DNA from: Cobetia marina
Lineage (GTDB): Bacteria; Pseudomonadota; Gammaproteobacteria; Pseudomonadales; Halomonadaceae
Length of the DNA: 64,000 nt
Assembly: GCF_001720485.1 (NCBI RefSeq)
Contig: NZ_CP017114.1
Span: 434,001-498,000, forward strand
Direction: 5' to 3'
The translations under genes were made by a program, and so were the position numbers. This document shows, one piece after another, positions 3,907 through 17,193 of the stretch (its first letter is position 1; each line of letters begins with the position of its first letter). The notes beneath the pieces were generated by a model. It was not told the origin of the DNA and searched no databases. It worked only from the letters and a program-made list of their open reading frames with translations.

Positions 3907-5292
<1,386 letters not shown>

Positions 5293-5305
5293 GCAGGCGA
5301 CAGGC

Positions 5306-5382
5306 TTGTGGATGCCGTCTTGGTCGTCGGCATCCACAACGCTTCCACATGACGGGGTCGTACCTTCGGGTACGGCCCCGTC
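5306..5382 (+). terminator. Two consecutive hairpins ending the eno transcript
   Basis: The first hairpin has 12-bp arms at 5306-5317 and 5328-5339. The second (5351-5382) has a 14-bp stem, including one wobble, capped by a UUCG-type loop. Neither has a T-run, so they may act mainly as 3'-end stabilisers or help Rho. Confidence 0.55.
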
Positions 5383-5455
5383 GTGCGTTACACGTGCTGT
5401 CCGCGCAGGTTGCGTCTCAAGTACGTGGACTTTCCCCATCTCTGCAGTCAGTTCA

Positions 5456-5473
5456 TGTAAGCCTTTTCCTACA
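5456..5473 (+). promoter_or_regulatory. GacA/UvrY-type upstream activating site
   Basis: TGTAAG-N6-CCTACA differs at one position from the TGTAAG-N6-CTTACA consensus known for GacA control of rsmX/Y/Z in Pseudomonas. It lies about 180 nt upstream of the predicted start of the GGA-rich RNA, similar to the spacing described for rsmZ. Assignment is by motif and context. Confidence 0.65.
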
Positions 5474-5536
5474 AGATATGCAGGATATAGAGGATAACTG
5501 CTGCACTCCGGATACGTGTTCAATCGTATGTTTTTC

Positions 5537-5570
5537 TTTAGATCACTGTTTTACAACAGTTTTATCTAAA
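5537..5570. repeat. AT-rich two-part inverted repeat upstream of the GGA-rich RNA
   Basis: The outer arms TTTAGAT (5537-5543) and ATCTAAA (5564-5570) enclose the inner arms ACTGTT (5545-5550) and AACAGT (5555-5560). It lies between the GacA-type box and the promoter in an AT-rich patch that stands out in this GC-rich sequence. It could bind a second regulator or a nucleoid protein. Confidence 0.45.
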
Positions 5571-5612
5571 AGCTTCCTTGTTTGTCCCGATTCGTCTGAG
5601 CGGTTTGGCTAG

Positions 5613-5641
5613 TTGCCTGATGACGGCTTGCTGACCAGAAT
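5613..5641 (+). promoter_or_regulatory. Candidate promoter of the GGA-rich RNA
   Basis: TTGCCT (5613-5618), a 17-nt spacer and CAGAAT (5636-5641), each four of six matches to consensus. A weak core promoter fits a gene that depends on an upstream activator. The start would be near 5648. Confidence 0.4.
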
Positions 5642-5647
5642 AGCGTC

Positions 5648-6370
5648 ATGGAAGCGGGATGCGGCGGGACACCGCACCCTTGAGCAGGATGCTCTTGATG
5701 ATCTTCCAGGGAGTACGTCGGGCAGGATGCCCGACTCGTCTGAACAGGATGTTCAGCGAACAGGAACCGTCAAGGATGACGGAAGCAGCAGCACTGCATG
5801 GCATCTTGCCCGAGGAGCGGGCAGGAATTGGCCAGGGACCACGGATGAATGGCCAGGTACAGGAAGTACCGGATCAGGAAGATCCAGAGTGACGGTATCG
5901 TCATTGGCAGCGGACGCGCAATCATGACAGGGATGGTTGATGGGTCTCGACCCGATATGCAGTCAGGAAGCTCGCCTTCACAGGAGTGACGGATGACGGG
6001 ACATCATCCGTGTCAGGCAGACGAGGCAATCAGCGGCAGAATCTCGACGGCAGGATGCCGAGGCAAGGATGTCAGATCACGGAACATCATGAGACTGTCA
6101 GCTGAGGCAGGTCAGGAGCGGCACGGGCAGGATGCCGGGCAATGCATCTGCGATGCAGTTGCATGAGCAGGACAGCAGGGCAGGCAATAAGCAGAAACGG
6201 GCATTGTGGTGGGACAGCTGCGCAAGCAGTGCCACAATGCCCCATGCGTGACGGTGCGCTCTGAATGGCAGGATGCCATGACGGGCAGGGACAGCACCCA
6301 GGAACACGATCCAGGACGGATCGACAGGGACACGCTTGGAGCGGGCGACCTTTCGGGGTTGCCCTTTTTT
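5648..6370 (+). ncRNA. CsrB/RsmZ-type CsrA-sequestering RNA, unusually long (about 720 nt)
   Basis: About 37 GGA trinucleotides occur in roughly 700 nt, several times the chance level. Six are exact CAGGATG heptamers (starting 5685, 5723, 5745, 6051, 6128, 6269), the repeat that defines E. coli CsrB. Many sit exactly in hairpin loops: 5661-5675, 5682-5694, 5717-5735 (8-bp stem), 5740-5756, 5767-5782, 5807-5823, 5829-5855 (two GGA in one loop), 5856-5870, 5871-5885, 5978-5989, 5989-6011, 6048-6060, 6062-6073, 6126-6136, 6265-6279 and 6307-6323. A GNRA-capped element sits inside a long 11-bp stem (6199-6242). The RNA ends in a clear intrinsic terminator. It lies next to fdxA, as rsmZ does in Pseudomonas, and the genome has csrA at 17002. 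By family knowledge it would bind many CsrA dimers and relieve CsrA repression. The exact 5' end is uncertain. Confidence 0.88.
6343..6370 (+). terminator. Intrinsic terminator of the GGA-rich RNA
   Basis: Arms 6343-6350 and 6357-6364 (8 bp, one wobble) with a UUUCGG loop are followed by six T (6365-6370). A further seven T occur at 6376-6382. Confidence 0.85.
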
Positions 6371-6427
6371 GTGCCTTTTTTTCGGCCCCACCTGCCGGGC
6401 TGGCTGACCATGAGCGCTCAAGACGAA

Positions 6428-6461
6428 GACGGCAGCCACCCCTGAGGGAGTGGCTGCCGTC
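6428..6461 (-). terminator. Hairpin ending the fdxA transcript
   Basis: Perfect 12-nt arms (6428-6439 and 6450-6461). On the minus strand a TTCGTCTT stretch follows. It separates fdxA from the convergent GGA-rich RNA. Confidence 0.65.
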
Positions 6462-6505
6462 TTGATGAGAACCTGGTGCTTGCCCGGTCAGGTCGGGCAG
6501 GGCAT

Positions 6506-6829
6506 TTACTGCTCCAGGTATTCGAGCTTGCCTTCGACACCATCCCACTTCTCGGCGTCTTCCATGGCGTCCTTCTTCTCGCTGATGTTCGGCCACACTT
6601 CGGCCAGATCGGCATTCAGCTCGATGAATTCCTTCTGATTCTCCGGCACTTCGTCCTCGGAGAAGATGGCTTCCGCGGGACACTCCGGCTCGCACAGAGC
6701 GCAGTCGATGCACTCGTCCGGGTTGATGACCAGGAAGTTGGGGCCTTCATAGAAGCAATCGACCGGGCAGACCTCCACGCAGTCAGTGTATTTGCAGCGG
6801 ATGCAGTTCTCGGTGACGATGAATGCCAT
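6506..6829 (-). CDS. fdxA: Seven-iron ferredoxin (3Fe-4S/4Fe-4S)
   Basis: 107 residues. The N-terminus [25 protein letters not shown] and the following [14 protein letters not shown] carry the cysteine pattern of FdxA-type ferredoxins, which bind one 3Fe-4S and one 4Fe-4S cluster. The acidic C-terminal tail ([21 protein letters not shown]) is also typical. It is a small cytoplasmic electron carrier of uncertain partner. Neighbours are the GGA-rich RNA (convergent) and mutS (same strand, upstream), matching the Pseudomonas rsmZ-fdxA-mutS order. Confidence 0.95.
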
Positions 6830-17001: not shown

Positions 17002-17193
17002 ATGCTCATCCTGACCCGTAGAGTAGGTGAAACGCTGATGATTGGTGATGACATCACCGTCACCGTGCTCGGTGTGAAGGGAAATCAGGTGCGAATCGGT
17101 GTCAACGCACCCAAGGACGTCGCCGTCCATCGTGAAGAGATCTATCAGCGTATCCAGCGCGAGAAGGAAGACAATGGTGATGCCATCGCCTGA
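17002..17193 (+). CDS. csrA: Carbon storage regulator CsrA (RsmA)
   Basis: 63 residues from the ATG at 17002, preceded by ACAAGGAG; the in-frame ATG-like start at 16960 lacks similarity. CsrA is a homodimeric RNA-binding protein that recognises GGA motifs in hairpin loops near ribosome-binding sites and blocks or stabilises messages. Seen: [40 protein letters not shown], with the RNA-binding Arg at residue 44 and the beta1 residues LTRRVGE. The Shine-Dalgarno itself contains GGA, so self-regulation is possible. The lysC-csrA-tRNA-Ser order is the Pseudomonas one. Its presumed antagonist RNA lies in this window at 5648-6370. Confidence 0.97.

Follow-up and report, generated by a model that had tools for sequence, protein, structure and literature searches.

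A predicted long CsrB/RsmZ-type RNA beside fdxA in Cobetia, apparently enlarged relative to its counterparts in other Halomonadaceae

Results

The eno-fdxA locus and its predicted control region

The window, i.e., the whole 64,000-nt stretch of the Cobetia marina genome analyzed here, carries between eno and the convergent fdxA gene a GGA-rich intergenic stretch that we propose to be a Csr/Rsm-type RNA. The relevant features are as follows (window coordinates).

4003..5292, + strand: upstream neighbor, an open reading frame starting at MANIVEI, which we take from general knowledge to be eno
5456..5473, + strand: GacA/UvrY-type palindrome TGTAAGCCTTTTCCTACA, a likely activator site, matching TGTARGN6CYTACA
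5613..5618, + strand: putative -35, TTGCCT (4/6 to consensus), recurring with an identical offset in five further Cobetia genomes as TTGCCT or TTGCCA
5636..5641, + strand: putative -10, CAGAAT (spacer 17)
5648..6370, + strand: proposed Csr/Rsm-type RNA, ~723 nt with 37 GGA, its 5' end placed from the -10 and its 3' end from the terminator
5685, 5723, 5745, 6051, 6128 and 6269, + strand: copies of CAGGATG
5717..5735, + strand: example GGA-loop hairpin, 7 bp, loop AGGAT (helix 3, both-side changes in 5 of 8 consensus pairs)
5740..5756, + strand: example GGA-loop hairpin, 6 bp, loop AGGAT (helix 4, both-side changes in 2 pairs)
6208..6369, + strand: 3' unit of the predicted RNA, a homolog of the short (~170-nt) form in other Halomonadaceae (covariance model R1, 64.2 bits; L010:1200-1361)
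6343..6370, + strand: rho-independent terminator, 9-bp stem (6343-6364) plus T run, the sole + strand terminator in 5250-6500
6506..6829, - strand: fdxA (ferredoxin), convergent neighbor, an open reading frame with Pfam Fer4 and DUF3470
17002..17193, + strand: csrA (Pfam, 95.5 bits), proposed target of the RNA

This csrA was the sole copy found in the Cobetia genome (one PF02599 match), the same genome encodes a relative of UvrY/GacA (50% identity over 212 aa), and the 5648-6370 stretch is matched in five further Cobetia genomes.

The palindrome pattern matches once in the 4.18-Mb genome (TGTAAGCCTTTTCCTACA) and the reversed control pattern twice; hence, the match by itself is not significant, and the argument for this predicted site is its place and conservation. 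That is, a palindrome scoring at least 10/12 was found in 58 of 79 eno-fdxA loci of Halomonadaceae, and the distance from its center to the putative -10 is 171-173 nt in 6/6 Cobetia; of the 52 other loci, 45 have a distance of 166-173 nt (search range ~123-230 nt). A similar site, TGTAAGATATCTCTTACA, is given upstream of rsmB in Serratia in the portion of one publication consulted (PMC8450108). The promoter scan, which asks for 9/12, lists no site, the putative promoter being 8/12 to consensus; transcription would start at 5648.

At the 3' end, the clear terminator described in the earlier note was recovered as the only one on the + strand, and the scan lists no + strand terminator inside 5648-6370 that would split the stretch into shorter RNAs. 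It is important to note that the shuffled region yields 1.1 terminator-like sites (both strands), so that terminator number alone means little. The terminator stem is also found across the family, and similar terminators occur elsewhere in the Cobetia genome. The scan of the window lists no + strand terminator between eno and the RNA either, and read-through from eno is therefore possible. Two strong hairpins without T runs, absent from the terminator scan list, lie past the eno stop (5306-5395), and a long, seemingly perfect hairpin at 6429-6460, flanked by the RNA terminator and the stop of fdxA, is probably the end signal of fdxA.

GGA motifs are enriched and exposed in predicted hairpin loops

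Motif counts on the + strand of 5648-6370 were compared with 1000 dinucleotide shuffles. GGA occurs 37 times (25.1 expected; 1/1000 shuffles reach 37), AGGA 19 times (6.4 expected; 0/1000 reach 19), CAGGA 16 times (2.6 expected; 0/1000) and CAGGATG 6 times (0.31 expected; 0/1000), the last being the six exact heptamers that had been noticed before. The opposite strand has 4 GGA and no AGGA, and across both strands of the whole window AGGA peaks in the segment of that length beginning at 5645 (19 copies), the runner-up having 11.

The hairpins were counted under a strict rule (at least 4 contiguous Watson-Crick pairs, loop of 4-9). The window RNA has 12 such GGA-loop hairpins and the five other Cobetia 14-17, compared with 2.5 +/- 1.3 in dinucleotide shuffles (max 7, n=200) and 4.5 +/- 1.8 in shuffles with all GGA fixed (max 10, n=200), while a consensus of local helices from the six Cobetia species yields 14 GGA hairpin loops, counting those with the triplet in 5/6 species or more. 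Hence, the dense array of GGA in hairpin loops described in the earlier note holds and the hairpin excess is real, but its figure of at least 15 is slightly high for the window genome. Nor are the triplets buried in stems when the RNA is folded: with pair span limited to 60, the mean unpaired probability of GGA is 0.65 vs. 0.54 +/- 0.04 in 60 shuffles, and 25 of the 37 GGA are mostly unpaired vs. 13.8 +/- 2.8 in shuffles.

In the six-species Cobetia alignment many GGA triplets are invariant and the stems are variable; 98.3% of cells pair in the consensus of local helices, and both-side changes occur at 21 pairs vs. 9.1 in shuffles (0/500 reach this) and 1-4 in slid controls. A further covariation measure, one of five, namely further pair types, was not above shuffles (334/500 reach it). 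The base for covariation is small (six closely related sequences) and the result is favored because the structure was derived from the same six sequences; read in this way, the compensatory changes support the predicted helices.

The Cobetia RNA appears about fourfold enlarged

To place the Cobetia form in its family context, we used a hand-made selection of 92 Halomonadaceae genomes from 121 (the best 30, then others by genus), 13 of which had no eno beside fdxA in the piece examined. The 79 loci kept comprise 6 from Cobetia, 2 from Larsenimonas, 63 with an ordinary GGA cluster and 8 without a cluster. The cluster spans 654-745 nt in 6/6 Cobetia, 625-626 nt in the two Larsenimonas and 70-324 nt (median 145) in the 63 other loci. 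Similarly, among the 58 of 79 loci with a palindrome of at least 10/12, and with terminators sought from 280 nt onward, the distance from palindrome to terminator is 897-915 nt in 6/6 Cobetia vs. 337-378 nt in 51/52 other loci; the uncalled locus (L138) gave 376 nt by a separate terminator pattern. With the start set at palindrome center + 183 in all loci, and leaving out three whose terminator did not fit the pattern (L037, L079, L098), the RNA body has 705-723 nt and 34-40 GGA in Cobetia vs. 149-184 nt and 7-12 GGA in 24 relatives.

Hence, the earlier suggestion of a ~720-nt RNA with one terminator, far above its relatives in size, is borne out for the predicted transcript in 6/6 Cobetia. 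Judged from these comparisons, the putative Cobetia RNA is about fourfold enlarged relative to a ~170-nt counterpart, positional and partly also in sequence, in many Halomonadaceae. What is new here is that relatives carry a predicted Csr/Rsm-type RNA of ordinary size between eno and fdxA, of which the Cobetia RNA is an enlarged form. To our knowledge, the longest such RNA is RsmB of Pectobacterium (~479 nt).

Other candidates for giant RNAs were rejected. The 762-nt GGA span of L044, a metagenome-assembled genome (MAG) of Pseudomonadales, represents by eye two RNAs with a terminator and a promoter region between them, and in L046, L185 and L203 the intergenic regions are long and the RNAs ordinary in size. 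The two tandem, GGA-rich, RNA-like units of L044 lie downstream of fdxA and have no Rfam match at the gathering score.

Comparison with known Csr/Rsm RNAs

The Rfam CsrB model (RF00018) does find the window RNA (26.1 bits, E 4.9e-5 for 1.2 kb), but well below its gathering score of 71, with no match at gathering; that is, the RNA is not a CsrB member by score. The PrrB_RsmZ model (RF00166) was unlisted for 5300-6500 at E 10 or gathering (overlapping same-clan hits merged), CsrB did not reach E 0.1 in two other Cobetia loci, and the short relatives fail too, with no match to the Rfam Csr families in the 15 non-Cobetia Halomonadaceae loci scanned.

Among 12 fdxA loci scanned with Rfam, RsmZ (RF00166) is above threshold and convergent with fdxA in 6, all Pseudomonas, with no match in the other six (Stutzerimonas, Hahella, Marinobacter, Marinomonas and two MAGs). 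In the five Pseudomonas loci with a listed palindrome, it precedes the RsmZ match by 171-183 nt (worked out by hand). For Pseudomonas, the order fdxA-rsmZ is also described in the consulted part of the literature (PMC9788540), as is an Alcanivorax RNA of similar kind next to a ferredoxin gene. Therefore, the proposal that the fdxA side is the rsmZ locus stands: the Cobetia RNA is likewise convergent with and adjoining fdxA, as expected under positional orthology. It resembles RsmZ in this orientation, in the upstream palindrome at a similar distance and in its GGA motifs, and differs in that the RsmZ model has 133 nt and no eno was found as the next gene in the Pseudomonas loci scanned.

With E. 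coli CsrB and CsrC the RNA shares many GGA in hairpin loops (the same rule gives 8 hairpins and 22 GGA for CsrB, 6 hairpins and 14 GGA for CsrC), whereas these RNAs have 369 and 246 nt, lie at a different locus and show no clear homology beyond the motifs (at best 7.0 bits against the terminator-free family profile). With the short eno-fdxA RNA of Halomonadaceae it shares much more (locus, palindrome, -10 spacing, GGA hairpins, terminator and the 3' ~120 nt), and differs in its length and number of GGA. In the portions of two publications consulted, the counts are 22 GGA in E. coli CsrB and 25 in Pseudoalteromonas Pf1 (PMC11882849), and 23-28 recognition motifs in the RNAs of Vibrio cholerae (PMC7366521); the GGA count of Cobetia is above these. 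Duplicated genes are also described, rsmX-1/rsmX-2 in Pseudomonas brassicacearum (PMC7911923) and csrB1-4 in Vibrio tasmaniensis (PMC7366521). CsrA-binding capacity is raised there by duplication, as may be the case in Cobetia, but the copies are separate genes, whereas the extra sites of Cobetia lie within one predicted transcript.

A search for a second Csr RNA in the Cobetia genome, covering palindrome-controlled candidates only, gave 8 palindrome places (at most 1 mismatch) vs. 14 for the reversed control, with an AGGA-rich stretch downstream only at the known one (11 vs. 0-3). A plasmid search with the Cobetia RNA as query found nothing. In the literature on Csr/Rsm RNAs in Halomonadaceae or Cobetia, with few subscription papers covered, we found no description of the eno-fdxA RNA.

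Origin of the extra length

The covariance model R1 was built from 23 of the 24 ordinary RNAs (L028 omitted). The terminator was rejected as proof of homology: R1 also matches unrelated terminators in the Cobetia genome (35.2, 24.6 and 23.1 bits), and homology was for this reason retested without the terminator. With nhmmer, positions 601-722 of the window RNA match the ordinary RNA at E 1.5e-12 (18.0 bits without terminator), and the last ~120 nt do so at E 1.3e-12 to 6.5e-12 in 6/6 Cobetia; the terminator-free match has 15.0-18.0 bits in Cobetia, whereas E. coli csrB reaches 7.0 and the top-scoring of 200 shuffles 4.3. Thus, on sequence similarity, the 3' ~120 nt of the predicted Cobetia RNA are clearly homologous to the ordinary family RNA. 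A further locus, L147 (G000:C1:3716086-3716215, - strand), has a short tandem repeat of the CAAGATGCATCGG type before a terminator, without GGA, and was matched through the terminator.

The 5' end matches the 5' half of the ordinary RNA at 13.0-13.3 bits in 3/6 Cobetia (1/300 block permutations reaches 13) and at 6.0-7.3 bits, no better than E. coli csrB (7.0), in 2/6, with no match found for the window RNA; the covariance model gives 8.4-8.6 bits there in four Cobetia species, below the 10.0 of E. coli csrB. An ungapped self-comparison of the Cobetia RNA revealed no repeat above shuffles, and a period of 217/218 nt, taken from the spacing of two repeat pairs, was dropped (best offsets 20-21/30 identical vs. 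up to 23 in 5 shuffles, six species). In pairwise alignments of ordinary and Cobetia RNAs without the last 42 nt, 15/18 pairs beat the best of 60 shuffles and 3 do not, the best place varying among the 3' end, the 5' end and the middle, which suggests homology and not a fixed copy number.

Hence, duplication inside the Cobetia RNA is plausible but unproven. The earlier idea that GGA modules were duplicated internally retains suggestive backing (the 5' match in 3/6 and the clear 3' unit), but self-comparison gives it no support, and the covariance model does not support the 5' match. The addition of new hairpins in the middle of the Cobetia RNA would fit too.

Tandem duplication of the unit is clear only in Larsenimonas. 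Two genomes of this genus (L142 and L143; over the query, one is identical to L. suaedae, and the other is of the same genus) each have a tandem array of four full-length R1 matches (54-70 bits) in the eno-fdxA interval, with 25 GGA over ~625 nt. In L. suaedae a terminator was found at the array end and none inside; the terminal hairpins of units 1-3 have, by eye, no T run, and transcription would read through across the units. The array shares with the Cobetia RNA its eno-fdxA locus and has several CsrA-type units in a row, but these units are still clearly recognizable, and no palindrome scoring at least 10 was found. In a third Larsenimonas genome (G011, L128), the eno-fdxA interval lacks an RNA of this kind, and a genome-wide model search at 1e-6 gave no match.

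A tree of eno plus fdxA covered 36 taxa, each with 280 or more eno residues; it contained a single Cobetia and no outgroup and was rooted at its midpoint. In this tree, L. suaedae and its sister group with five further genomes in a clade with support 100, and Cobetia falls outside it. Short forms occur on both sides of the split (L016, L134 and L141 on one side, most other loci on the other), and two separate enlargements are therefore the simplest account.

Discussion

Our results make it very probable that 5648-6370 encodes one long (~705-723 nt), non-coding CsrB/RsmZ-type RNA at fdxA, a candidate high-capacity CsrA sponge predicted from sequence. The stretch has what is expected of the class of CsrA-sequestering RNAs: it is intergenic and apparently non-coding, ends in a rho-independent terminator, carries many GGA in predicted hairpin loops and follows a predicted GacA/UvrY-type palindrome upstream of the promoter, and csrA and a GacA relative are encoded in the same genome. 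Mechanistically, a GacA-type response regulator would bind the palindrome ~183 nt upstream and switch on the promoter, and RNA polymerase would make a single transcript up to the terminator; we infer a single transcript because there is one start region, one end and no internal terminator found. The RNA would then fold into a row of short hairpins displaying GGA in their loops, a step supported by sequence, folding and covariation. At an assumed two GGA per CsrA dimer, up to ~17-20 dimers could be bound per transcript, an upper bound that supposes all 34-40 GGA to be working; this sequestration would release CsrA-controlled mRNAs.

Alternatively, the array might be a tandem series of ordinary short RNAs that each start and stop separately, as would fit the tandem units in relatives (two in L044, and two in L127, each there with its own palindrome by eye) and an old promoter-like GCCACAATG read from the sequence at ~6230 in the window. 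We consider this improbable, since no internal + strand terminator was found, the first terminator at least 280 nt past the palindrome is at 897-915 nt in 6/6 Cobetia, and the palindrome has only one exact match in the genome. It is also conceivable that the GGA array belongs to the eno mRNA as a long 3' untranslated region and binds CsrA in cis, with which the lack of a listed + strand terminator between eno and the RNA would agree. However, the palindrome and -10 recur at conserved spacing downstream of eno in 6/6 Cobetia and most relatives, a terminator-like site separates eno from the palindrome in several relatives (e.g., L034 and L027), and RsmZ occupies the fdxA-side place in Pseudomonas, all of which makes this reading highly improbable.

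That the stretch is a protein gene, or a portion of one, is scarcely credible. Open frames touching 5648-6370 reach 208 aa, and the opposite strand has a 241-codon stop-free stretch in one Cobetia species. However, none of four open reading frames tested there matches Pfam at E 0.001, 15-19 indels that are not multiples of 3 separate 5648-6370 from another Cobetia in each pairwise comparison, the longest open frames differ among species, the GGA are strand-biased and the helices covary; the earlier statement that no protein gene is supported here agrees with these data.

How the long CsrA sponge RNA arose is harder to judge. In a tentative model, to which we give slightly less than an even chance, sponge RNAs grow by concatenation: a ~170-nt gene would have been tandemly multiplied in Cobetia and Larsenimonas separately, with loss of the inner terminators, so that the copies fused into a single giant transcript of about fourfold CsrA capacity. 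Under this model, Cobetia would represent an old, blended stage and Larsenimonas a young one in which the copies can still be told apart.

In a table of Gac-Rsm systems in the consulted part of one publication (PMC7366521), the RNA of the GacS-GacA cascade of Halomonas anticariensis is given as 'Unknown'. The conserved eno-fdxA RNA represents a concrete candidate for the RNA of this cascade in much of the Halomonadaceae. Further, the putative Cobetia RNA may lend itself to a natural test of what sets CsrA activity, the sponge capacity of each transcript or the number of sponge genes, since it could be exchanged for a short relative whose control region is of the same kind.

A few loci of the family are arranged differently. 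Beside fdxA in L127 (G009, ~428-1530, - strand), two GGA-rich units, each by eye after its own palindrome, match the family model weakly (12.5 and 8.3 bits). In L125, L126, L128, L135, L208, L210, L211 and L212, eno lies beside fdxA with no GGA cluster between them, and likewise in L065 and L082 (Salinicola); a whole-genome model search in four genomes with cluster-less loci (G008, G088, G011 and G022) gave no match at 1e-6. In L174 (G020) and L175 (G061), model matches of 54.7 and 49.9 bits, respectively, are found away from fdxA, and the RNA seems to have been relocated in that genus.
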